A DNA stretch of 32,516 bases from positions 1 to 32,516 of the forward strand of contig MKUV01000061.1 of NCBI GenBank assembly GCA_001898725.1. Reading direction: 5' to 3'. Positions 4,273 through 32,031 of the stretch are shown in pieces (within the stretch, counting starts at the first letter, position 1; the number at the start of each line of letters is the position of its first letter). The stretch is from Caedibacter sp. 37-49 (GTDB lineage: Bacteria > Pseudomonadota > Alphaproteobacteria > Caedimonadales > Caedimonadaceae). A model generated the notes under the pieces. The model had not been told where the DNA came from and did no database searches. It saw only the letters and a program-made list of their open reading frames with translations. A program made the position numbers and the translations under genes.

Positions 4273-5298
4273 ATGCAGGCATATTCATATTTAGATTCTT
4301 TATGGCATCGTGGGAAAGAATTTTTGGGCGTTGAGGTACCAATTCTTGCAGGAGCTATGACGTGGGTGTCTGATCGCCATTTAGTATCAGCTATCTCAAA
4401 TGCTGGTGGGTTTGGCGTTATTGCATGTGGTGCCATGGAACCGCACCATCTTGATCATGAAATTAGCGAAACAAAAAAGCTAACGACGCGTCCTTTTGGC
4501 GTAAATTTAATTACTTTGCATCCTGATTTAAATAAACTTATCGAAGTTTGTATTCAGCATCACGTAAGCCATATTATTCTAGCCGGCGGTTTACCAAATG
4601 CTGAATCAATAAAAATGGTTAAGAATGCTGGTATTAAAATGGTTTGTTTTGCACCAGCACTGGCTTTAGCAAAACGATTAATTCGAATGGGAGTTGATGC
4701 GCTTGTAATTGAAGGTCATGAAGCTGGAGGACATATTGGGCCCGTCACGACATCTGTTCTTGCTCAAGAAATTATCCCAGCTTTGAAAGAGGTCCCTATT
4801 TTTGTGGCTGGGGGAATTGGTCGTGGTGAAGCCATTTTGAGCTATCTTGAAATGGGCGCTTCAGGCTGTCAGTTGGGAACAAGATTTGTTTGTGCAACAG
4901 AATGCCGCGCGCATCCTAGATTTAAACAAGCTTTCATTCGAGCTTCCTCAAGAGATGCAGTGATTTCACCGCAACTTGATGCAAGATTTCCTGTTATCCC
5001 GGTTCGTGCTTTAGAAAACGAGGGAACGCAAAAATTTGTGGAATTTCAACAACAAACTATTGACCAAGTTAATAGGGGAGAGGTGGAACTTAAAGAAGGT
5101 CAGCTGCAAATTGAAAAATATTGGGCAGGTGCTTTACGACGTGCAGTTGTTGATGGTGATGTTGAGACAGGTTCTGTCATGGCAGGGCAAAGTGTTGGTT
5201 TAGTAAATAAAGAACAGCCTGCAAAAGAGATTATTGATGAACTTATTGCTCAGGCAATAACGACAATTGAGATGCGAAATAAAGTAAAAGTTTCTTAA
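4273..5298 (+). CDS. Nitronate monooxygenase / FabK-like FMN flavoprotein
   Basis: A 341-residue TIM-barrel flavoprotein of the NMO/2-nitropropane dioxygenase family. PILAGAMTWVSD (23-34) is the N-terminal barrel signature. EGHEAGGHIGP (147-157) carries the conserved active-site histidine region, and VAGGIGRGEA (about 177-186) is the phosphate-binding glycine motif for FMN. Members either oxidise nitronates or, in the FabK branch, reduce enoyl-ACP in fatty acid synthesis. The EAGGHIG..TT motif is shared with FabK, so either role is possible from sequence alone. The ATG at 4273 follows GGAAAG with a 5-nt spacer. The gene stands alone, with more than 300 bp of AT-rich DNA on each side. Confidence 0.85.
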   Translation: MQAYSYLDSLWHRGKEFLGVEVPILAGAMTWVSDRHLVSAISNAGGFGVIACGAMEPHHLDHEISETKKLTTRPFGVNLITLHPDLNKLIEVCIQHHVSHIILAGGLPNAESIKMVKNAGIKMVCFAPALALAKRLIRMGVDALVIEGHEAGGHIGPVTTSVLAQEIIPALKEVPIFVAGGIGRGEAILSYLEMGASGCQLGTRFVCATECRAHPRFKQAFIRASSRDAVISPQLDARFPVIPVRALENEGTQKFVEFQQQTIDQVNRGEVELKEGQLQIEKYWAGALRRAVVDGDVETGSVMAGQSVGLVNKEQPAKEIIDELIAQAITTIEMRNKVKVS

Positions 5299-5639: not shown

Positions 5640-6674
5640 ATGAATGCTAAAAGAAAACAGGTGGAAACGGTAAAACCTAAAGAAAAAAAAGAAATAAATA
5701 ATCAGAATGAGAATCTTCTCTCTAAAAAAGAGAGTAAAACCTCGCAGCATATAGGTCATCATTTCCGTAAAGTTAGAGAACGTAAACATTACAGTCTAGA
5801 AGAGATTTCCAAAGTCTTAAGAATTGGAGAACGTTATCTTGAGGCAATTGAAGAAGGGAACATAGAAATTCTTCCAGAAAGAGTTTACACTCTGGGATTC
5901 GTACGTGCTTATGCACAATATTTAGGTGAGAAACCCACGAAATGCGTTGAGCAGTTTAAACAGCAAATTTTGCTTGAAAACCAAGCTGTGCAATTAAATC
6001 TTCCCGATGCTTTAAGAAAATCAACAACGCCAAACAAAATGTATCTTCTTATTTCTATAGGCGTTGCAATTACAGTTTTATTACTTTTGTTTCTTGTAAA
6101 ATCTTTTTCACAAGAAAAACAAGAGATTCCAGATTTAATACCTTCAGAAAAAACATTAAGTAGATTAGAAACAAATGATTCTGCTCAAATTAAATTTCAT
6201 AATTCTGCAACTAAAAATTTAGATGAACGAGATTCTTCTAATTCTTTGTCTATTATGTCTCCAACTCAGGAAGCAAGTATCAAAGTTAATGAGTCGACGC
6301 CTTCAAGTGATGGTGAAAAGCAGTTAGAAGATTTAAAAGACAGTAAAACATTAAATCAATCTTCAGATAAAAACGCGGTTCTAGAAAACAATCTTCAAAT
6401 AACCTCTACACACATTAAATTAACATGTATTGAAGAAACCTGGGTGCAAATTAAAGATGCTCAAGGTAATATAATCTTAGTAAAAACAATGTTACCAGGT
6501 GAATCCTATGAGGTGCCTCAAAAAGAAGGTCTAATTTTACTTACAGGAAATGCCGGAGGACTTAATATAACCGTTGGAAATGCGCCTTCAAAGTCTTTAG
6601 GGGCAAAAGGTGAGGTCAAAGACAATATTTTGCTAGACGATGAATCATTACTTTCTTATCTTAAGGCACATTAA
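5640..6674 (+). CDS. rodZ: RodZ-like helix-turn-helix membrane protein
   Basis: A 344-residue protein with RodZ architecture. Residues 1-37 are a lysine-rich leader. Residues 38-110 form the HTH_25 domain, with the family signature Y.LGFVRAYAQYLG near 83-96. One membrane helix spans 134-156, a serine- and acid-rich periplasmic linker runs 157-255, and a DUF4115-type beta domain covers 256-335. RodZ links MreB to the membrane and supports the elongation machinery; the cytoplasmic HTH domain binds MreB rather than acting as a classical repressor. It lies upstream of hisS as in E. coli, where ispG separates the two; here ispG is missing. The ATG at 5640 has a GGGGAA ribosome site about 10 nt upstream. 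Confidence 0.82.
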   Translation: MNAKRKQVETVKPKEKKEINNQNENLLSKKESKTSQHIGHHFRKVRERKHYSLEEISKVLRIGERYLEAIEEGNIEILPERVYTLGFVRAYAQYLGEKPTKCVEQFKQQILLENQAVQLNLPDALRKSTTPNKMYLLISIGVAITVLLLLFLVKSFSQEKQEIPDLIPSEKTLSRLETNDSAQIKFHNSATKNLDERDSSNSLSIMSPTQEASIKVNESTPSSDGEKQLEDLKDSKTLNQSSDKNAVLENNLQITSTHIKLTCIEETWVQIKDAQGNIILVKTMLPGESYEVPQKEGLILLTGNAGGLNITVGNAPSKSLGAKGEVKDNILLDDESLLSYLKAH

Positions 6675-6727
6675 ATAAAAAAAATCCAAGTTTACGGATT
6701 AAACTTAAGAACTAATGGAGTAAATTC

Positions 6728-7969
6728 GTGTTTCAGCCAGTTCGTGGAACGCATGACTTGTTACCTGAGGAATGTCGTCAATATCGTTTTATTGTGAAAG
6801 AAGCCATGAAGGTGGCTCGGTGCTATGGGTTTGAAGAAATTTCAACACCTATATTTGAGTTTTCAGGCGTCTTTCATAGACTTGGCGAAACATCAGACGT
6901 TGTTAGTAAAGAAACTTATACCTTTCAGGATAGAGGAGGAGAGGATCTTACACTTCGTCCCGAAGGAACAGCGGGAATTGTTCGTGCTGTAATATCCCAT
7001 GGTTTAGGGCAACATGCGCCTTTAAAATTTTCTTATGCAGGTCCCATGTTTCGATATGAACGTCCTCAAAAAGGGCGTTATCGACAGTTTGATCAAATTG
7101 GTGTTGAACTTATTGGTGTCGCAAAGCCATTGGCTGATATTGAAGTTATTGCAATGGCACATCAGATTTTAAAAAATTTAGGTGTAGACGAAAGTGTTAA
7201 ACTAAACATTAATACGTTGGGAGATACTGAAAGTAGAGAAAATTACAAGAAAGCTCTTTTAAATTATCTAAAACCATTTCGCCCTAAATTATCTTTAGAA
7301 AGCCAAGATAGACTTGATCGTAATCCTTTAAGAATTTTAGATTCTAAATCTGAACAAGATGAAATGATTATAAAAGAAGCACCTGTTTATAGTGACTACT
7401 TAAATGAAACTTCAAAAACTTTCTTTAACGATGTTTGTAAGGGATTAGAAATTCTTGATATTTCTTACAAAGTTAATACGCGTTTAGTGCGGGGATTGGA
7501 TTATTATTGTCATACAACCTTTGAGTTCATTACTGATGTTTTAGGGGCACAAAGTACAGTAATTGCTGGGGGGCGTTATGATAATCTTGTTGAGATGATG
7601 GGCGGACCGCGTCTGCCAGGTGTTGGCTGGGGCGCTGGGGTTGATCGGCTCGCGTTATTAAGGCCAATAATTCCTTTAGAGCAAACGCCTATTGCGATGA
7701 TTCCTTTAGGTGATGAAGCAGAAAAAGCTTGTTTCAAATTGACTCAAGAACTTAGAGATAAAGGCATTTTCGTCGATATAGGATATCACGGGAATCTATC
7801 TAAACGTTTAAAGCGTGCTGATAAATTAAAAGCTACTTATGCAATTATTATTGGTGAAGATGAGATGAGGGCACAAGAAGCTTTGCTACGGGATTTTAAG
7901 ACGGGAGCTCAAGAAAAAGTTCCTTTTGAAAAGTTAGTCGATAAATTAGTGAAAGTACAATTAGCATGA
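6728..7969 (+). CDS. hisS: Histidine-tRNA ligase
   Basis: A 413-residue class II synthetase of normal length. [10 protein letters not shown] at the N-terminus, the motif 2 arginine region [16 protein letters not shown] and the histidine-binding [12 protein letters not shown] segment are all present. The C-terminal 95 residues form the anticodon-binding domain. It attaches histidine to tRNA-His in the cytoplasm. The KGRYRQFDQ motif is the ordinary bacterial form and not the divergent type known from some other alphaproteobacteria. The start is GTG at 6728 with GGAG 7 nt upstream. The stop overlaps prfA as ATGA, so hisS and prfA are probably coupled. Confidence 0.96.
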
Positions 7970-9045
7970 GTTTCGATTCTAAATTAGATCAAGTCCTTAC
8001 GCGTTATCATGAATTAGGAAATCTCTTGGGAACAGGGACACATGAAAGTGGACAAGAATTTGCACGCCTCTCAAAGGAATATGCTGATCTTAAGGATGTC
8101 TCAGAAGCCATTACAATGTTGCGAAAAGTGCAAAGTGAAGTTAAGGATTTAGAAGATTTACTGAATGATCCTGCACTTGATTTAGAATTTAAAACCTTAG
8201 CAGAAGAGGATTTAAAAGTTAAAAAGGAACAGATTCCTAATTTTGAACATCAAATAAAAGTCCTTTTATTACCTAAAGATGCTGACGATGAACGTAACGT
8301 TATCCTTGAAATACGCGGAGGAGCAGGTGGGGATGAAGCTGCTCTCTTTGCAAGTAATTTATTGCGTATGTACCAACGTTATGCGGAAGGTTTAAGGTGG
8401 CGTTTTGAGATCATAAGTTTAACAGATACAGGGATTGGTGGGATCAAAGAGGTTAGTGCTTCCGTAATGGGAAAAGGTGCGTATTCAAGACTTAAGTTTG
8501 AATCAGGTGTGCATCGTGTCCAGCGTGTACCAGCGACTGAATCACAAGGTAGAATCCATACGAGTACGGCGACTGTTGCTGTTTTACCTGAAGTTGAAGA
8601 TGTTGATATTGTGATAGAAGAAAAAGATTTGAGAATAGATGTTTATCGCTCAAGTGGTCCGGGAGGGCAATCCGTTAACACCACAGATAGTGCTGTTCGA
8701 ATTACCCATATTCCATCAGGCCTTGTCGTTCAACAACAAGATGAAAAATCACAACATAAAAATAAGGCAAAAGCTCTTAAAATCCTAAGGGCTCGCCTTT
8801 ATGATTTAGAGAGACAAAAGAAAGAGGCTGAAAGATCAGCTTCTCGAAAAAATCAGGTTGGTTCTGGAGATCGTTCTGAACGGATTAGAACTTATAACTA
8901 TCCTCAAGGGCGTGTAACAGATCATCGTATTAATTTAACTTTGTACAAGCTTGATCAAATCTTAGAAGGTGCGGCTTTAGATGAGCTCGTTGACGCTCTT
9001 GTTACAGAAGACCAAGCAGGTCGTCTTGCCGATGTTACAGAGTAA
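7966..9045 (+). CDS. prfA: Peptide chain release factor 1
   Basis: A 359-residue class I release factor. GGQ is at 233-235 within [10 protein letters not shown] and is the motif that triggers peptidyl-tRNA hydrolysis. PAT at 189-191 matches the P.T tripeptide of RF1, which reads UAA and UAG, rather than the SPF of RF2. The length is full. The ATG at 7966 overlaps the hisS stop by 4 bp and the stop shares one base with prmC. PrmC, encoded next, methylates the glutamine of the GGQ motif, so enzyme and substrate are adjacent in the operon. Confidence 0.97.
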
Positions 9046-9899
9046 TGTCGTTAACAATTTTTAAAGCTCTTACTGAAGCAAAAAAAAAACTTGAGTACGC
9101 TGAAATTAAAAATAGTCATCACGAAGCAAGATTATTGCTTAAGTATGCTTTAAATCTTTCATTAGAAGAAATAATAACGGCTTCAGATCGGGAATTAGCG
9201 CCGTATCAACTGGAAAAATATGAAAGTTGGGTTTTAAGACGAACTCTTCATGAACCTCTTTCAAAGATTAGAGAAGAAAAAGAATTTTGGAGTTTACCTT
9301 TTATTGTAAAAGCAGATGCTTTAGATCCACGTCCTGATAGTGAGACTTTAATCGAAGCTGTTTTTAAAACTTATCCTGTCCGAGAAAAGCGTCTCAATAT
9401 TCTTGATTTAGGGGTAGGAACTGGTTGTTTAATTATTACCCTTCTTAAGGAATATTTATATAGTTATGGGATTGGCATTGATAAGTCTATTCTTGCTTTG
9501 GAAGTTGCACGTCTAAATTTAGAAAAATTTAAACTACATGAACGACTTAAGCTTATCAATACTTTTTGGGGAGAGGGAATAGTAGAAGAATTTGATATTA
9601 TTGTTTCCAATCCGCCTTACATTGCAGAGACTGATCGGCAGATGCTTTCTCAAGAAGTAATTAAGTATGATCCTCATATTGCTTTATTTGGTGGAAGTGA
9701 TGGTTTAGATGCTTATCGTTCTTTAGCACCTCATGCTTTCCGTTTATTAAAGTCATTGGGACATTTGTTTCTTGAAATAGGAAAAAACCAAGAGTCATCC
9801 GTTCAAGAAATCCTTCTGGAAAATGGATTTACTCTCAAAGAATGGATCCCAGACTTAGCTGGGATCTTGCGTTGCGGTATTTTCCAAAAAGCAAATTAA
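9045..9899 (+). CDS. prmC: Release factor glutamine N5-methyltransferase
   Basis: A 284-residue methyltransferase. An N-terminal helical substrate domain is followed by RPDSE (about 96-100), the SAM-binding DLGVGTGC (121-128) and the catalytic NPPY (189-192), which defines glutamine methylation of release factors. It modifies the GGQ glutamine of RF1 and RF2. The ATG shares its A with the prfA stop codon. The 3' end overlaps the convergent aspS stop by 4 bp, leaving no intergenic space for a terminator. A strong hairpin lies within its last 60 bp. Confidence 0.95.
9845..9866. repeat. Strong hairpin inside the 3' end of prmC
   Basis: GATCCCAG at 9845-9852 is perfectly complementary to CTGGGATC at 9859-9866, with a 6-nt loop. 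It lies 33 bp before the prmC stop and, on the other strand, 30 nt downstream of the aspS stop. It could define the 3' end of the aspS transcript from inside prmC. No good U-run follows on either strand. The DNA encodes the conserved IPDLAG part of PrmC, so the symmetry may be partly coincidental. Confidence 0.35.
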
Positions 9900-12933: not shown

Positions 12934-12992
12934 AAGTTTTGCACTGAGAGAAATTTTCTCGTAGGGTGTCGCACAGTTTGCAAAAGGTAAAT

Positions 12993-13988
12993 ATGATGAA
13001 AGCACTTAAATTATTTCTCTTTATGGTCGCATTTACCATAATTGGAATATTTTATTATAAGTGGTTTTCCAAACCTTCTTCAAAAATTAAAACAATTGCT
13101 ATTAGCCAAATTGTTGAGCATCCCTCTCTTGAGGCTGTTAGGCGAGGAATAATTGATTTTCTTGTTCAAAGTAACTTACAAGAAGGTAAAGACTACAAGA
13201 TAATTTATAAAAATGCGCAAGGCAATATGAGTATTAACAATCAGATTGCAAAGCAATTTGTAGGGATAAAACCAGATGTCATCGTAGCTATTTCTACACC
13301 TAGTGCTCAAGCTCTTGCAGTTGCCTCTCACAACATGAACATTCCTTTTATATTTGCAGCCGTTACAGATCCTGTACATGCAAATCTTGTTAAAGATTTA
13401 AAGAGGCCGGGCGAATTTATTTCTGGCGTAAGTGATCTTCCTCCAGTGCATGCTCAAATAGAATTAATTAAGGACATCCTTCCTAAAGCGAGCAAAGTTG
13501 GTATTTTATATAATCCAGCTGAAGTTAATTCAGTAAAAATAATCAATAAATTTAAAGAATTGGCTCAGAAAATGGACATTGAAGTATTCTTAGCTCCAGC
13601 AACAAGGACTTCAGAAGTATTGTTTGCTGCCCAAAGTTTAGTTGGAAAAGTTGATGCAATTTACATACCTCAAGATAATACGATAGTATCCGCGATTTCT
13701 TCTCTAATTTCTTTGCAATATGAGAAAAATATCCCCTGTTTTACAAGTGATGAAGTGTTAGTTCAAAAAGGAGCATTTGCGGCTGTTGGCACAAGTTATT
13801 ATGAGCATGGAAAGCAGGTTGGCGAAAGAGTTATTAAATTTTTAAAACATACACCAGGTTTGCAAATTCCTATTGCCTTTCCTGAAAAACCTCAAATTTA
13901 TATTAATGAGACAACAGCTAAGCACTTGGGAATTAATGTACCAAGTAAAATCGCCAAAAGAGCACATTATTATAAAATTCAAAAATAG
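12993..13988 (+). CDS. ABC transporter substrate-binding protein (TrpX-type), membrane-anchored paralogue
   Basis: A 331-residue protein of the ABC_sub_bind family (PF04392), the group containing TrpX. Family blocks include ISQIVEHPS near the mature N-terminus, AISTPSAQAL and FAAVTDPVHA in the first lobe, and LYNPAEVNS in the hinge region. The N-terminus (residues 4-25) is a hydrophobic helix without a clear AxA cleavage site or lipobox cysteine, so it may stay as a membrane anchor. The ATG at 12993 is chosen because AAAGG lies 7 nt upstream; an in-frame GTG at 12966 is a weaker alternative. The next gene is a paralogue. Substrates of this family include aromatic amino acids; the substrate here is not known. 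Confidence 0.82.
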   Translation: MMKALKLFLFMVAFTIIGIFYYKWFSKPSSKIKTIAISQIVEHPSLEAVRRGIIDFLVQSNLQEGKDYKIIYKNAQGNMSINNQIAKQFVGIKPDVIVAISTPSAQALAVASHNMNIPFIFAAVTDPVHANLVKDLKRPGEFISGVSDLPPVHAQIELIKDILPKASKVGILYNPAEVNSVKIINKFKELAQKMDIEVFLAPATRTSEVLFAAQSLVGKVDAIYIPQDNTIVSAISSLISLQYEKNIPCFTSDEVLVQKGAFAAVGTSYYEHGKQVGERVIKFLKHTPGLQIPIAFPEKPQIYINETTAKHLGINVPSKIAKRAHYYKIQK

Positions 13989-14156
13989 TTGAAAAGGTTT
14001 ACTTTTTTGAAAATCTAAGTTACATTTCACGGCTAAATTATGAAATTATTAATGTTTGTCTGTTAGCATTATTAGTAAAAAAACTAAAAGACATATAGTG
14101 AAATTGTCTGATAAGCAACAACGAAAAATAATAAAAAAGTATAAAGGAACTTTATT

Positions 14157-15188
14157 ATGAATAATGCTAAAAACTTCTCTTTTTTAAAGAGTTGTAGAAA
14201 AGTTTTTCATTTAAAATTTTCTAGTCTTTTAACACTTATAAATTCTTTTATATGTATATCTTATGCTCATGCATTAGTAGATAAACCCATTATTGCTATC
14301 ACACAAATAATTGATCATCCTTCAGCTAATGCTGTTAGAGAAGGCATTAAAAAATCTCTCGAAGACCAAGGATACATCGATGGAAAAACAATTAAATGGC
14401 TTTACAAAAACCCTCAAGGGAACAGTGCGACTAATATTCAAATTGCTCAACAATTTGTGAGTTTAAAACCGAGCATTATGATTGCTATTTCTACACCAAG
14501 TGCACAAGCTTTAGTTTCATCAGCTCGCAATCATAGCATACCTATTGTTTTTGCAGCCGTCACTGATCCTATAAATGCAGGGATTGTCAAAGATCTAAAA
14601 AAACCAGGTGGTTTAGTAACAGGTGTGAGTGATTTCCCCCTTATTGAAAGACAGGTTAAACTTATTAAAAAGATGTTACCAAATGCAAAAGTGATTGGTG
14701 GTCTGTATAATCAAGGCGAAATTAATTCTGTGAAGCAGTTTAGGCTTTTTGAGGAACTTGCAAAGAAAGAGGGGTACGAGGTTATTTCTGTTGCTGCTAT
14801 GAAAACGTCAGATGTACATGCGGCAGCGTTAAGTCTTATTAAAAAAGTTGATGCTTTCTATATTACTCTAGATAACACTGTCCTTTCTGCCATGGATATT
14901 TTAATTAAACTTCAATTTGATTTTAAAAAACCCATTTTTACAAGTGAGACAGATTCTGTTTTTCAAGGTGCGTTAGCAACAGCTGGAGCTCATTTATTTG
15001 ATATAGGAAGAAGTGCGGGAAAAATGGTTATTAGAATTTTACAAGGGGAAAAACCTTCAGAGATTGCTGTCGAGACAGCCGAAGTTTCGGACATTACAGT
15101 TAACATGAAAACCTTAAATTATTTAGATTTAAAGCTTCCTGAAGATAAAGAATTTAATTTTAATAAAGTCGGATTTGAGAACTCTTGA
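14157..15188 (+). CDS. ABC transporter substrate-binding protein (TrpX-type), secreted paralogue
   Basis: A 343-residue ABC_sub_bind family protein that matches the preceding gene block by block: ITQIIDHPS, AISTPSAQAL, FAAVTDPINA and LYNQGEINS. Unlike that gene it has a signal peptide of about 40 residues with a long n-region, ending in SYAHA, a likely signal peptidase I site. It should therefore be a soluble periplasmic binding protein. It lies 19 bp upstream of the permease and is probably the main receptor of the system. The 168-bp gap before it may hold its own promoter, but no convincing boxes were seen. Tandem copies suggest duplication followed by specialisation. Confidence 0.85.
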   Translation: MNNAKNFSFLKSCRKVFHLKFSSLLTLINSFICISYAHALVDKPIIAITQIIDHPSANAVREGIKKSLEDQGYIDGKTIKWLYKNPQGNSATNIQIAQQFVSLKPSIMIAISTPSAQALVSSARNHSIPIVFAAVTDPINAGIVKDLKKPGGLVTGVSDFPLIERQVKLIKKMLPNAKVIGGLYNQGEINSVKQFRLFEELAKKEGYEVISVAAMKTSDVHAAALSLIKKVDAFYITLDNTVLSAMDILIKLQFDFKKPIFTSETDSVFQGALATAGAHLFDIGRSAGKMVIRILQGEKPSEIAVETAEVSDITVNMKTLNYLDLKLPEDKEFNFNKVGFENS

Positions 15189-15207
15189 TTTATAGAAAGA
15201 TAATTTT

Positions 15208-16113
15208 ATGAATGAATTACAGTTTTTAGGTGCAATAGAGCTTGGCCTAATTTATAGCATGGTCGCTTTAGGTGTTTATCTTTCTTTTCGAATATTAGAT
15301 TTTCCAGATATGACAGCAGATGGTTCTTTTCCTTTAGGCGCAGCAATTGCAGCAACTTTAATTTCTTACGGATGTAATCCCTGGTTGTCTACGTTTTGCG
15401 CTATTCTAGGTGGCTGTGGCGCTGGTTTCTTTACAGCTTGGTTGAGTGTGCGTTGGAAAATCTTAAATTTGCTATCTGGAATTCTAACTATGTTGGCTCT
15501 TTATTCAATTAACTTAAGGATTATGAAAGGGCCTAATGTAACCATTATGATGGATGTAAGAACAATTTTTAGTCCCTTTGAAATAATGTTCTCGACAAAA
15601 ATAACAGGAACAATTTTCTTATTAAGCCTGATTACTTTAGTTGCAGGTTTTTTATTATGGTACTTTATGCTCACTAAGACAGGCCTTGCTGTGCGTGCGA
15701 CAGGAACTAATCCGCGGATGGCTAGAGCACAAGGTATAAAAACTAGAGCAATGATTCTTTTAGGAATTTCTTTAAGCAATGGATTAATTGCTTTAGGAGG
15801 GGCGTTGTTTGCTCAACATCAGGGTTTTGCTGATGTGAGTATTGGTAGTGGAACTATTATTATGGGCCTTGCAGCTGTAATTATAGGGGAAGTTGTGTTC
15901 CAAACGCGAAGAATTTGGTTAACTCTTTTGGCTTGTATTATTGGCGCAATTCTTCACCGCTTTGCAATTGCATTAGCCCTCAATGCAGATGGTATTGGTT
16001 TGCAGGCGACAGATTTAAATTTAGTAACGGCGGCTATTGTGATTATTGCGATGATACTTCCGCGTTTGAAGGAAATAACAACAAATAAATTTACAGAGCG
16101 GAGTCGGTCATGA
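15208..16113 (+). CDS. ABC transporter permease (BPD_transp_2 family)
   Basis: A 301-residue hydrophobic protein with about eight membrane helices of the branched-chain/TrpY type. FPDMTADGSFPLGAA near residues 32-46 and LRATGTNPRMARAQGI-like sequence (VRATGTNPRMARAQGI here, about 162-177) are the family landmarks; the second is the cytoplasmic coupling loop that contacts the ATPase. A single permease implies a homodimeric channel. Its stop overlaps the ATPase start as ATGA, so the two are translationally coupled. With the two binding proteins and the ATPase it forms a complete importer. Confidence 0.9.
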   Translation: MNELQFLGAIELGLIYSMVALGVYLSFRILDFPDMTADGSFPLGAAIAATLISYGCNPWLSTFCAILGGCGAGFFTAWLSVRWKILNLLSGILTMLALYSINLRIMKGPNVTIMMDVRTIFSPFEIMFSTKITGTIFLLSLITLVAGFLLWYFMLTKTGLAVRATGTNPRMARAQGIKTRAMILLGISLSNGLIALGGALFAQHQGFADVSIGSGTIIMGLAAVIIGEVVFQTRRIWLTLLACIIGAILHRFAIALALNADGIGLQATDLNLVTAAIVIIAMILPRLKEITTNKFTERSRS

Positions 16114-16907
16114 TTAAGCTTGAAAAAATACGTGTTCTTTTTAATCAAGGAACAGCATTAGAAAAAATGGTTCTGAATAACGTCTCCCTTGCTATTGAAG
16201 AAGGAGAAGTTGTCACTGTTATTGGTGGAAATGGGGCAGGAAAATCGACTTTATTAAATGTTTTAACTGGTGATATTAGACCATCCTATGGAAAAGTCTT
16301 TTTTGAAAACATTAATGTTACAGACTGGTCAGCAGAAAAAAGAGCAAGTATGGTAGCGCGTGTTTTTCAAGATCCTTTAGTAGGGACATGCGGGAATTTA
16401 ACTGTGGAGGAAAACTTAGCTCTTGCCTTTTATCGTGGTAAAAATCTTGGTCTTCGTTTTGCTTTATCACCTAATAATCGAAAAATTTTCCATGAATTTC
16501 TTGAAAAGTTAAATTTGGGGCTTGAAGCGCGACTTAAAGACCCTATTGGCCTTTTATCAGGAGGTCAAAGGCAAGCGATCTCTTTAATTATGGCTGTTCT
16601 TTCTCCTATGAAAATATTGGTTCTTGATGAGCATACAGCAGCTTTAGACCCACGAACTGCTGCTTTTATTATCCAGCTTACCTGTAATATTATATTAGAG
16701 AAAAACTTAACTGTTTTGATGGTAACCCATAGCATGCGTCAAGCGCTTGAAGTTGGAAATCGAACTCTCATGCTCACAGAAGGAGAAGTGGTTTTCGATG
16801 CAAATGGAAAAGAACATTCAAAATTAACAGAAGATGATCTTTTAAAACTTTTTAAAGAAGTTGTTGATAAAAAGGGAGAAGAGGACGAAATTCTTTTAAA
16901 CCCTTAA
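16110..16907 (+). CDS. ABC transporter ATP-binding protein (TrpZ-type)
   Basis: A 265-residue ABC ATPase. Walker A GGNGAGKST is at 39-47, the Q-loop lies in VFQDPLVGTC (about 85-94), the signature LSGGQRQ is at 149-155, and Walker B ILVLDEH is at 169-175. The H after the catalytic glutamate, in DEHTAALDP, is characteristic of the ATPases that partner ABC_sub_bind importers. The H-loop is in VTHSMRQA. It powers uptake by the linked permease. No terminator with GC stems follows; the next 95 bp are AT-rich. Confidence 0.92.
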   Translation: MIKLEKIRVLFNQGTALEKMVLNNVSLAIEEGEVVTVIGGNGAGKSTLLNVLTGDIRPSYGKVFFENINVTDWSAEKRASMVARVFQDPLVGTCGNLTVEENLALAFYRGKNLGLRFALSPNNRKIFHEFLEKLNLGLEARLKDPIGLLSGGQRQAISLIMAVLSPMKILVLDEHTAALDPRTAAFIIQLTCNIILEKNLTVLMVTHSMRQALEVGNRTLMLTEGEVVFDANGKEHSKLTEDDLLKLFKEVVDKKGEEDEILLNP

Positions 16908-25828: not shown

Positions 25829-26797
25829 ATGGAAAAAGAAGAAAAATTACCTCTATGTATTGATCTTGATGGCACCCTAATCCGAACCGATGTTACACAA
25901 GAGGGTGTCTTATTATTTCTGAGAAAGTACCCTTGGAAATTTTTCTATATTTTGTATTGGCTTTGCAGAGGGAGAGCTTTTCTTAAAGCAAAATTAGCTC
26001 AAAAAGTAATGTTTAATCCAAAATTTCTACCCTATAATCAAGACTTTTTAAATTATCTTAAAGTTAAAGCCCGAGAGGGATATGATCTTTATCTAGTTAC
26101 TGCAGCAGATCAAAAATGTGCGAAAATGGTTTATGATCATCTAGGCATCTTTAAAGAATATCTTGCAAGCGATGGAAACAAAAATTTGCGTTCTTCAACT
26201 AAAGCGCAAGCTTTATGTGATCTTTTTGGAGATGAAGGTTTTATATATGCTGGAAATTCAAAACACGATCTTCCTGTTTGGGAGAAGGCTGGTGAGATTA
26301 TTGCAGTCAATACCCCCAACAATGTCCTTAAGAAAGTTAACATCCTTAATAAAAAAATCGAGAAATTTGAGGATAAGAAATTTGCTTTAAAAGATGTTGG
26401 TAGAGATTTCCTAAAATCCCCTTGGTTTAAATTCCAATTATCTTTTAATTTATTGATTATAATAATAAATTTATTATTTAATAAGTTTTATCTAGAGGTA
26501 TTTAATTTATTTAAATGGATAAGTTTTACTGCTTTTATATTTTTTCTTAGTGCAGCCGCTTCTTTAGTTGGTCAGTTATTTGCACTTGAAGAAATGAGAA
26601 GTAATTTAAGAACAAGCAAAATGTTGTTGGCTACAGGGTATCTAACTATTCCTTTAGCAATATACTTAAGTCTAATTTTTATAACTTTAGGTGTTATTTT
26701 AGGGTTATTTTTTCCACCATTTTATTACATTTTTATCGCTTTATTCTTTATAATTCAATTTGGCTATATTGGTCGGCTGATAAGAGAAAAAATTTAA
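25829..26797 (+). CDS. HAD-type phosphatase with a degenerate, truncated UbiA-like membrane tail
   Basis: A 322-residue protein. The HAD domain (about 7-165) keeps the nucleophile motif DLDGT (12-16), VTAAD (90-94), K125 and GNSKHD (142-147). It matches the HAD half of the HAD-UbiA fusions found in alphaproteobacteria. The C-terminal part (about 198-320) has four hydrophobic segments and lines up with the first part of UbiA. Where UbiA has its aspartate-rich prenyl-diphosphate motif, this protein reads VGQLFALEEMRSN (247-259), with no aspartate. It also ends about 150 residues short of the usual fusion length. Phosphatase activity may persist; prenyl transfer should not. AGGAAAG lies upstream of the ATG. 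Confidence 0.82.
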   Translation: MEKEEKLPLCIDLDGTLIRTDVTQEGVLLFLRKYPWKFFYILYWLCRGRAFLKAKLAQKVMFNPKFLPYNQDFLNYLKVKAREGYDLYLVTAADQKCAKMVYDHLGIFKEYLASDGNKNLRSSTKAQALCDLFGDEGFIYAGNSKHDLPVWEKAGEIIAVNTPNNVLKKVNILNKKIEKFEDKKFALKDVGRDFLKSPWFKFQLSFNLLIIIINLLFNKFYLEVFNLFKWISFTAFIFFLSAAASLVGQLFALEEMRSNLRTSKMLLATGYLTIPLAIYLSLIFITLGVILGLFFPPFYYIFIALFFIIQFGYIGRLIREKI

Positions 26798-28867: not shown

Positions 28868-29632
28868 ATGAAAGGTAGCATTCAACCTTTACCCTTTAAG
28901 CGAATTTTACTTAAGTTATCTGGAGAAGCTCTTATGGGGGAGAAAAGCTATGGGCTTGACCCCGCGACAGTTGAGAGAATCGCTCTTGATATAAAAAGCG
29001 TCCATGCTTTAGGATGTCAAATTTGCATTGTTATTGGTGGTGGTAATATCTTCAGAGGGATAAATGGTGAGGCACAAGGAATTGATCGTTCTACGTCTGA
29101 CTATATGGGGATGCTTGCCACCGTTATGAACGCTTTAGCACTTCAAAATGCTTTAGAAAAACAAGATGTTGATACGCGTGTGCAATCTGCAATCCCTATG
29201 GAAACTGTGTGTGAAAGTTACGTACGCCGTAGAGCACTTTATCATTTAGAAAAAAAACGCGTTATAATTTTTGCTGCAGGTTCTGGGAATCCATTTTTTA
29301 CGACTGACACAGCAGCAGTCTTAAGAGCAAATGAAATGGGATGCGATGTTTTAATGAAAGGTACAAAAGTTGACGGTGTTTATTCATCAGATCCAACAAA
29401 TACTAAGAATGCAAAGAGATTCGAACATTTAAATTACTTACAGGTTCTTTCGGAAAATTTAAGAGTAATGGATATGGCAGCTATCGCTTTAGCTCGGGAA
29501 AATCATTTGCCATTGATTGTTTTTTCTATTCAGGAGCCTAATGGTTTTATCAAAGCCTTAACTGGACATGGCACATTTACTTCTATTTCTAATCACGCGA
29601 ATCAACAGCAGTTTTTACAAGGGAGATTATAG
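28868..29632 (+). CDS. pyrH: UMP kinase
   Basis: A 254-residue amino-acid-kinase fold UMP kinase. [14 protein letters not shown] is the N-terminal phosphate-binding strand, [10 protein letters not shown] follows it, and [21 protein letters not shown]-type sequence forms the nucleotide site. It makes UDP from UMP in the cytoplasm. The ATG at 28868 has AAGGA 9 nt upstream; an in-frame TTG one codon earlier is possible. It is followed 1 bp later by frr. Confidence 0.96.
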
Positions 29633-29633
29633 G

Positions 29634-30191
29634 ATGAGTGCATTTAATCTTGAAGATCTTAAAAAACGTATGCAAGGGGCTTTTGATGCTCTTGCAAAGG
29701 AATTTAACGGGTTGAGAACAAATAGAGCTTCTACACATCTTTTAGAACCTCTTATGATTGATGCTTATGGGTCGCGCATGCCGATTACACAAGTAGGCAC
29801 AATCAGCACGCCTGAAGCTAGATTGTTAACAGTTCAAGTGTGGGATAAAGAACTTGTAAAAGCTGTTGAAAAAGCGATTAGAGAGGCTAATCTAGGTTTA
29901 AATCCTTCAGCAGATGGTCAGATCGTTCGTATTCCAATGCCTGATTTGAGTCTTGAAAGGCGTCAAGAGATTGCAAAAATTGCGGCTAAATACGCTGAAC
30001 AAGGAAAAATCTCAGTAAGAGCAGTTCGGCGAGATGGTATGGATGAATTAAAAAAACTTGAGAAAGACAGTAAAATTTCTGAAGATCAGCATCATAATTA
30101 TGCTGATGAGATTCAAAAACTTACGGACGACTTTATTAAGAAAATTGATCAAGCATTACAACAAAAAGAAAAAGATATCCTACAAGTCTAA
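29634..30191 (+). CDS. frr: Ribosome recycling factor
   Basis: A 185-residue RRF, exactly the usual length. The conserved N-terminal helix has LRTNRASTHLLEPL, and the C-terminal helix has RAVRRDGMDELKKLEKD. With EF-G it splits post-termination ribosomes. The open frame extends 66 bp further upstream into pyrH, but the ATG at 29634 gives the family N-terminus and has GGGAG about 9 nt upstream. It starts one base after the pyrH stop. Confidence 0.97.
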   Translation: MSAFNLEDLKKRMQGAFDALAKEFNGLRTNRASTHLLEPLMIDAYGSRMPITQVGTISTPEARLLTVQVWDKELVKAVEKAIREANLGLNPSADGQIVRIPMPDLSLERRQEIAKIAAKYAEQGKISVRAVRRDGMDELKKLEKDSKISEDQHHNYADEIQKLTDDFIKKIDQALQQKEKDILQV

Positions 30192-30215: not shown

Positions 30216-30947
30216 TTGTCTTCTTATACACCTTCTTTAGAAATAAATCTTCCACGGCACATAGGAATAGTGATGGATGGCAATGGACGTTGGGCCCAAG
30301 CTCAGGGACTTGAACGTTTAAAAGGACATTACGAGGGAGCTGAAGCTCTTAAACGCATCGTCCAAGCTTCTGTTGAATTGGGAATTGAATATTTAACAGT
30401 TTATGCGTTTTCAACAGAGAATTGGTCTCGTCCTGTAGAGGAAGTTAAGGGGTTAATGTTTCTTCTACGCCATCATTTAACAGCAGGTCTTAATGACCTT
30501 ATGAAAAATAATATAAAATTAAAAGTTATAGGATTTTTGGACAAATTAGAGCTAGATTTGCAAGAAGTAATTAATCAAGCCGTTAATAAGACCTCTCAAA
30601 ATACAGGATTAACATTTTGTATTGCTTTTAATTATGGTGGACGAGCAGAAATTGTTGAAGCTACTAAAAAAATTGCAGAAAAAATAAAATCTGAAGAATT
30701 AAAAATAGAGGCTTTAACCGAAGAAGTTTTTGCTCAGCATCTTTTAACGCGAGACCTTCCAGACCCAGATTTGTTTATTCGAACAAGTGGTGTATCTCGC
30801 CTTAGTAATTATCTCTTATGGCAAATGGCCTATACTGAGATGGTATTTTCAAATACACATTGGCCTGACTTTAAAAAAGAAGATTTAATCGATGCTATTA
30901 CCCAGTACCAACAACGAGAACGTCGCTTTGGTAAAATCGCTTCTTAA
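30216..30947 (+). CDS. uppS: Undecaprenyl diphosphate synthase
   Basis: A 243-residue cis-prenyltransferase. HIGIVMDGNGRWA holds the catalytic Asp21, followed by the GH.G-like region and AFSTENWSRP. RTSGVSRLSNYLLWQ near residue 190-205 binds the IPP diphosphate. It builds the C55 lipid carrier for peptidoglycan and other wall polymers from farnesyl diphosphate and IPP. The start is TTG at 30216 with AAGG 8 nt upstream; the first internal ATG would cut the catalytic motif, so TTG must be used. The 3' end overlaps cdsA. Confidence 0.95.
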   Translation: MSSYTPSLEINLPRHIGIVMDGNGRWAQAQGLERLKGHYEGAEALKRIVQASVELGIEYLTVYAFSTENWSRPVEEVKGLMFLLRHHLTAGLNDLMKNNIKLKVIGFLDKLELDLQEVINQAVNKTSQNTGLTFCIAFNYGGRAEIVEATKKIAEKIKSEELKIEALTEEVFAQHLLTRDLPDPDLFIRTSGVSRLSNYLLWQMAYTEMVFSNTHWPDFKKEDLIDAITQYQQRERRFGKIAS

Positions 30948-31596
30948 AAGTAATTTTATTCAAAGAACACTAACGACACTAATTTTAGGTTCGTTCTCAA
31001 TATTTGTTCTGCTACAAGGTTATCCTTATGCCCATATATATATGGGGGTTTTTCTTGTAGGAGCTATCGTCGAATGGATATGCCTTCTTTGGCCTATTCA
31101 ACGATCATGGTTGAAACGAAGTACATGGCTTATTATTGGGATTCTTTTCATTGCTTGCTCGGGGGTAGGTTTAGGAATACTTTCCTATGAAAATTCAACA
31201 ATATTTGTTGGGGTTCTCTTACTTGTGTGGTCAACAGATATAGGGGCGTATCTTTTTGGCAGATGGTTAAAAGGTCCTAAATTAGCACCGTCAATTAGCC
31301 CAAATAAAACTTGGTCAGGGGCTATAGGTGGTATCATTACATGTTTGTGCCTTATGACTTTATTCTTTCAGTTTTATAATTTTTCTTCTGTTCAGACGCT
31401 GTCGACGCTTTTAAGGTATGCACTTCTTATTTCAGTTATCTCTGAAATTGGAGACCTTTTTGAATCTTGGGTTAAACGTAAACTTAATGTTAAGGATTCA
31501 GGAAGTATTATTCCAGGGCATGGTGGAATTTTAGATAGACTAGATAGTCTTCTTGCCATTGGTTTGGGTTACTTCTGTATAAAGGTGTTTTGGTAA
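30892..31596 (+). CDS. cdsA: Phosphatidate cytidylyltransferase
   Basis: A 234-residue membrane protein with about six to seven helices and the CdsA signature near the C-terminus: SWVKRKLNVKDSGSIIPGHG then GILDRLD, ending near 219. It makes CDP-diacylglycerol from phosphatidic acid and CTP, the branch point for all phospholipids. The protein is shorter than the usual 260-285 residues, mainly at the N-terminus. The ATG at 30892 lies 56 bp inside uppS; a TTG at 30928 is another candidate, and neither has a strong ribosome site. In many alphaproteobacteria dxr comes next, but here a DUF6314 gene does. Confidence 0.92.
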   Translation: MLLPSTNNENVALVKSLLKSNFIQRTLTTLILGSFSIFVLLQGYPYAHIYMGVFLVGAIVEWICLLWPIQRSWLKRSTWLIIGILFIACSGVGLGILSYENSTIFVGVLLLVWSTDIGAYLFGRWLKGPKLAPSISPNKTWSGAIGGIITCLCLMTLFFQFYNFSSVQTLSTLLRYALLISVISEIGDLFESWVKRKLNVKDSGSIIPGHGGILDRLDSLLAIGLGYFCIKVFW

Positions 31597-32031
31597 ATGA
31601 TTGTTGATCTTAAAAAGTGGTTGCGTGGATCATGGCAGATTAATCGAGAAATTAGAGATTTTGAACATCAACTTTTAGGCCATTTTGAAGGAAGATTAAC
31701 GTTTACTGATGATGAATTTAATAATCTTGCGGCTCATGAAGAAGGGGAAACAACTTTTGGGGAACATCACGGATTAGCAACCTCAAACTTAATTTATCAT
31801 TTTCCATCACTCTCTCTCGCAAAAGTCCTATTTCATGATCGGCGCTATTTTCACGATTTAGATTTACGTTTAGGTTTTTGGAAAGTTGAGCATCATTGTG
31901 GTCAGGATCGTTACGTTGGACGCTTTACGGTACAGTCTGAACGACGTTTAGACGTTGAGTGGTCAATTAAAGGACCTAATAAAAAACTGGAGATTAAGAC
32001 GGTGCTTACGAGACTTAAAGAAACAAAATAA
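31597..32031 (+). CDS. DUF6314 family protein, function unknown
   Basis: A 144-residue soluble protein recognised as DUF6314 by its layout. WLRGSWQINREI opens it, HFEGRLTFT follows, then VLFHDRRYFHDLDL, VEHHCGQDRYVGRF, and a closing VEWSIKGPNKKLEIKT. It looks like a small beta-barrel, perhaps lipocalin-like; the true function is not known. The ATG directly follows the cdsA stop with no gap, so it is co-translated with the end of the operon. The link to cdsA hints at a lipid or envelope role, which is only inference. Confidence 0.75.
   Translation: MIVDLKKWLRGSWQINREIRDFEHQLLGHFEGRLTFTDDEFNNLAAHEEGETTFGEHHGLATSNLIYHFPSLSLAKVLFHDRRYFHDLDLRLGFWKVEHHCGQDRYVGRFTVQSERRLDVEWSIKGPNKKLEIKTVLTRLKETK

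Follow-up and report, generated by a model that had tools for sequence, protein, structure and literature searches.

Caedibacter sp. 37-49 has in all likelihood lost the MEP pathway of isoprenoid synthesis by reduction, taken on no mevalonate pathway in its place and come to import C5 diphosphates from its host, a reading to which we attach a probability of roughly 0.88. The genes that were tested for are absent, genes of the downstream steps are present and gene order is conserved, and we infer supply of the precursors by the host as the best explanation. The loss of ispG is well supported, and the system is of an already known type. Its wider interest lies in the absence of both ispG and dxr from ten of ten genomes of an apparently host-dependent order, in the distribution of idi across that order together with the need for both C5 diphosphates predicted for the window's genus, and in a suggested revision of what has been published on idi and MEP genes in the group.

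The window, by which is meant the whole stretch of DNA analysed, is an entire contig of 32,516 bp (C61) from a genome of 1,832,742 bp in 78 contigs, with a completeness score of 99.96% and a contamination of 0.38%. No tRNA was found in the window with ARAGORN. The order was sampled through ten genomes, the window's own included, from five genera; eight are at least 90% complete and the other two 85 and 89%. The closest named relative found by a search with HisS is Caedibacter sp. 38-128, at 83% identity, and the 20 genomes beyond it, at 37-46%, served only as background in the neighbourhood comparison. The rodZ/hisS junction of Caedibacter sp. 38-128 and its identities agree with those of G003, a genome of the window's genus. 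NCBI taxonomy puts this name (our locus L003, MKUU01000050.1) in the Gammaproteobacteria, and despite that filing its genes in the rodZ-hisS region are the closest to those of the window's genome; the placement is probably a carry-over of the old genus name. According to the excerpted text of PMC11909080, the name Caedibacter was also formerly used for Caedimonas, an alphaproteobacterial genus of the Caedimonadaceae (Holosporales). We infer that the organism of the window is a Caedimonas-like member of the Holosporales, and its host would probably be a protist.

An earlier note on this DNA had remarked that rodZ and hisS are joined across a gap of 53 bp with no ispG between them, and on this the coordinates, the family matches and tblastn agree. 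The block reads as follows:

4273..5298, + strand: nitronate monooxygenase-like gene, 5' of rodZ (PF03060, E 2.5e-54)
5640..6674, + strand: rodZ (Pfam HTH_25, E 6.2e-20; RodZ_C, E 4.7e-15)
6675..6727, + strand: 53-bp gap between rodZ and hisS, the expected site of ispG (from ORF coordinates)
6728..7969, + strand: hisS, with GTG as start codon (tRNA-synt_His, E 2.3e-43)
7966..9045, + strand: prfA, continuing the block (ORF named from sequence and context; neighbour in L003 90% identical)
9045..9899, + strand: prmC, continuing the block (ORF named from sequence and context; neighbour in L003 72% identical)

No remnant of ispG was found in the window when four IspG proteins, one of E. coli and three of the class, were used as tblastn queries; this search returned only three matches, with E values of 4.5 to 9.3, none of them at the gap. 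Across the order, rodZ adjoins hisS in seven of the ten genomes, the window's own among them, with a spacing of 20-61 bp. Two genomes of the order's family f4, G008 and G009 (loci L091 and L092), have no detected rodZ before hisS, while the contig of G007 starts inside hisS.

That rodZ-ispG-hisS is the usual order, as the same note assumed, holds for E. coli K-12 and for many relatives in the class, though not for all of them. Of 385 genomes of the class, 305 are ispG-positive; 20 stretches around ispG were chosen from these, with long contigs favoured, and compared by tblastn with the window's proteins, a test that would miss a HisS of higher divergence. In 15 of the 20 stretches a rodZ match stands upstream of ispG at a distance of no more than about 1 kb, and in 8 ispG is immediately followed by a HisS match; 7 have the complete order, and one (L100) has no match to any protein of the window. 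In L099 a nitronate monooxygenase homologue, rodZ, ispG, hisS, prfA and prmC all stand in the window's order, the first of them just upstream of rodZ-ispG-hisS, and the homologue is found farther upstream in L098, L103, L109 and L111.

The place of dxr differs between groups. In E. coli the order is frr-dxr-ispU-cdsA, with dxr before uppS, and in the alphaproteobacterial arrangement dxr would be expected after cdsA. The window holds, in this region:

29568-30191: frr (ORF named from sequence), the next gene being uppS at 30216
30216..30947, + strand: uppS, undecaprenyl diphosphate synthase (PF01255, E 2.2e-85; TIGR00055 over the cut-off; 44% identical to E. coli IspU)
30892..31596, + strand: cdsA, with no dxr after it (PF01148, E 5.7e-47)
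31597..32031, + strand: DUF6314 gene, occupying the place after cdsA (PF19834, E 1.7e-28)

Between the DUF6314 gene and the contig end no ORF of at least 80 aa is listed. The note was right that dxr is missing after cdsA, and the place between frr and uppS is empty of it too; it was also right that uppS is present and brings a demand for isoprenoids, UppS being a retained consumer of FPP and IPP. The UppS encoded at 30216-30947 has RTSGVSR where the E. coli protein has RTGGEHR, a valine thus standing in the place of a glutamate that we take to be conserved and functionally important.

In the genome as a whole, ispG, ispH and dxr are absent and no dxs match exceeds its cut-off; ispG, dxr and dxs over cut-off were sought in all ten genomes of the order and found in none, while the search for ispH covered the window's own genome. 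The dxs model has a cut-off of 465.95 bits, and the best scores were 87.8 in the order and 82.5 in the window's genome. These matches, all short of the cut-off, were rejected as dxs; judged by their length and the part matched, they are probably pyruvate dehydrogenase E1 subunits and transketolase. The GHMP kinase N domain was sought in the window's genome and in 14 controls; it was found in 14 of 14 controls, which makes its absence from the former informative, and from that absence it follows that neither ispE nor mevalonate kinases are present. The kinases and the decarboxylase of the known mevalonate routes are members of the GHMP kinase superfamily, and the result therefore also speaks against replacement by these routes. 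Absence of the MEP pathway is accordingly judged on ispG, ispH, dxr, ispE and dxs, and that of the mevalonate pathway on the GHMP kinase domain. The earlier note had the MEP pathway lost or moved. With the tested genes missing genome-wide, loss is favoured over relocation, and the complete MEP set elsewhere in the genome that the note named as telling against its view was not found, ispG, ispH, dxr, dxs and ispE all being missed. In the class, ispG is missing from 80 of 385 genomes (20 named by the search, the remainder being genomes not among its matches) and from 58 of 315 among the better genomes, so that in this data set such a loss is no rarity.

The downstream half of the pathway is retained. 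At least one match to trans-prenyl diphosphate synthases is present in 10/10 genomes of the order, and two or more in nine. The window's genome has two, on contigs C49 and C3, in addition to the UppS of the window, and both carry the two aspartate-rich motifs that we take to be the recognised motifs of trans-prenyl synthases. The C49 copy, which lies beside xseB, passes the FPP synthase model NF045485 (301.4 against 275 bits); the C3 copy, of 340 aa, is probably IspB, an octaprenyl or similar long-chain synthase. E. coli has the order xseB-ispA-dxs. On C49, xseB-ispA is followed by an accC-like gene (named from sequence) on the opposite strand and not by dxs.

These observations are consistent with the following course of events. 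The MEP pathway would have been lost in the ancestor of the order, with a clean excision of ispG from a long-standing rodZ-ispG-hisS-prfA-prmC block, and would not have been replaced by a mevalonate pathway. Only the downstream half would have been kept, that is IspA (FPP synthase), a second trans-prenyl synthase (probably IspB) and UppS. With neither pathway present and this half retained, C5 diphosphates would have to be imported, and the host is their likely source. As type-1 idi is missing from the genus and type-2 isomerase from the window's own genome, this genome should need host IPP together with DMAPP or a short allylic diphosphate. No importer of prenyl precursors was identified in this analysis. 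The window does contain, at 12966-16907, genes for two similar proteins of substrate-binding type, then one for a permease-like protein and one for an ATPase-like protein; the group looks like an ABC uptake cluster and gives no sign of prenyl diphosphate cargo.

Longer prenyl diphosphates might be imported rather than C5 units only, as the excerpted text of PMC5615194 relates for Rickettsia, which is proposed to import FPP. This would agree with the lack of an isomerase of either type in the window's genome, where DMAPP should not arise from IPP. However, the retention of an FPP synthase with both of its motifs points to an uptake of C5 or C10 substrates, and UppS and IspB require IPP in any case, and we regard this alternative as unlikely. 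Quite improbable is the reading that the MEP genes exist and merely fall in assembly gaps, or lie on a contig or plasmid missing from the assembly. The assembly is indeed in 78 contigs, and the window is one whole contig. Yet the genome is 99.96% complete, the rodZ/hisS junction lies in the interior of an assembled contig and is seen again in six relatives, and ispG and dxr are missing from every genome of the order sample, including G004, whose 1,838,212 bp form one contig at 96% completeness; their absence from all ten makes an assembly gap unlikely. For five separate steps to be missing by chance from a near-complete genome, with nine relatives also devoid of ispG and dxr, is improbable. 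Completeness, the count for ispG and dxr and the single-contig genome were the grounds for discarding both the assembly gap and the relocation. The least credible alternative, that a horizontally acquired mevalonate pathway replaced the MEP pathway, has a precedent in another intracellular alphaproteobacterium, Candidatus Sarmatiella mevalonica (PMC11253213, in excerpt), but was rejected, as far as routes with GHMP kinases go, for want of any GHMP kinase N domain in the window's genome.

Loss of the MEP pathway with import of C5 diphosphates from the host has parallels among known intracellular bacteria. As excerpted from PMC5615194, Rickettsia lack the MEP and mevalonate pathways as well as IspA, most of them keep Idi, and import of IPP, in certain cases DMAPP, and FPP has been proposed for them; R. 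parkeri is inhibited when the host mevalonate pathway is blocked (PMC6854040, in excerpt). The likeness extends to the absence of both pathways, the retention of UppS and IspB and the dependence on host isoprenoids. In the same excerpts (PMC5615194, PMC6854040), however, Rickettsia are without IspA, which the window's genome keeps, and most have an idi thought to be laterally acquired, whereas the idi of the order studied here is of type 1 and mostly lies near gyrB. The Rickettsia pattern is thus departed from on two counts, the FPP synthase of C49 being present and an isomerase of either type lacking. Supply from the host, which the earlier note had offered as one explanation in the form of IPP as in Rickettsia, remains the most plausible account of the precursors, though the comparison with Rickettsia applies only in part. 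Holospora is closer and is the best match for the window's genome, as far as the excerpts of PMC5911502 go. There, Holospora are described as having only those steps of the ubiquinone route that lie downstream of DMAPP, with no interconversion of DMAPP and IPP, and as keeping a geranyl-diphosphate synthase; import of DMAPP is proposed. In the window's genome, likewise, no isomerase was found and a short-chain prenyl synthase is kept. If the organism of the window is Caedimonas-like, Holospora nonetheless differs from it in genus and in family within the Holosporales. Candidatus Sarmatiella mevalonica resembles it as an intracellular alphaproteobacterium with an unusual supply of isoprenoid precursors, and differs in carrying a full mevalonate gene set, reported in the excerpted text as horizontally acquired (PMC11253213), where the window's genome has no GHMP kinase. 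Of the 4,249 species surveyed in a paper of 2026, again as excerpted, 2.61% have neither pathway (PMC13001223). In the open-licence literature searched, so far as its accessible text goes, we found no description of isoprenoid supply in Caedimonas-like bacteria, and the isoprenoid terms sought do not occur in the main text of either PMC8163844 or PMC11724238.

The isomerase sets the window's genus apart from the rest of the order. Seven of the ten genomes of the order carry type-1 idi over the cut-off of TIGR02150, and the window's genus, with three genomes, has no match to this model. Type-2 isomerase (Fni, TIGR02151) was sought in the window's own genome and gave nothing over cut-off. A candidate on contig C4 was rejected at 52.6 bits against a cut-off of 281.3; the C4 protein scores 64.5 bits on the Fni model and 286.5 on that of L-lactate dehydrogenase (short of the latter's cut-off of 376), and by these scores it is taken for a lactate-dehydrogenase-type FMN dehydrogenase. 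The distribution of type-1 idi offers a natural comparison for a C5-diphosphate importer, since relatives that bear idi should need IPP only and the window's genus, without it, should need IPP and DMAPP.

In six of the seven loci of the order (L044, L045, L046, L048, L049, L050) gyrB lies within the 1.5-kb flank of idi; the exception is G001, of the window's family, where idi is flanked by ppk. The same neighbour is found in two of 29 further loci of the class, L058 and L062, which belong to a family outside the order (f9). A place near gyrB common to the order and to this family points to type-1 idi as an old gene that was later lost in the window's genus. A tree of 33 idi rows, from which L081-L083 were omitted as matches below cut-off, contains several long branches and divides the seven proteins of the order between two groups with no single supported clade; with this division the tree decides neither for nor against a single origin of the order's idi. 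Class-wide, idi is over cut-off in 10 of 80 ispG-negative and 17 of 305 ispG-positive genomes, 19 genomes with only sub-cut-off matches being scored as negative, and the Fisher p of 0.046 carries little meaning because related genomes are not independent; the coupling of idi with loss of ispG is weak. Somewhat tentatively, then, type-1 idi may be old and vertically kept near gyrB in Holosporales-like orders, where it would have enabled import of IPP alone after loss of the MEP pathway, the window's genus later losing idi and relying on an importer for IPP and DMAPP alike. A statement of 2017, excerpted from PMC5615194 and based on nine sampled Holosporales, has all other Rickettsiales and Holosporales without idi and with MEP enzymes. 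Provided that it belongs to the Holosporales, the window's order does not fit this statement on either point, and the published claim would be overturned if the reading of idi as an old gene is true.

Elsewhere in the window, at 25829-26797, a protein is encoded that combines a HAD part with a UbiA-like one. Its UbiA match spans only 16-105 of 250 profile positions, below cut-off, and the match to a second model, of 482 positions, runs from 7 to 318 and is likewise below cut-off; the protein is possibly shortened or decayed.
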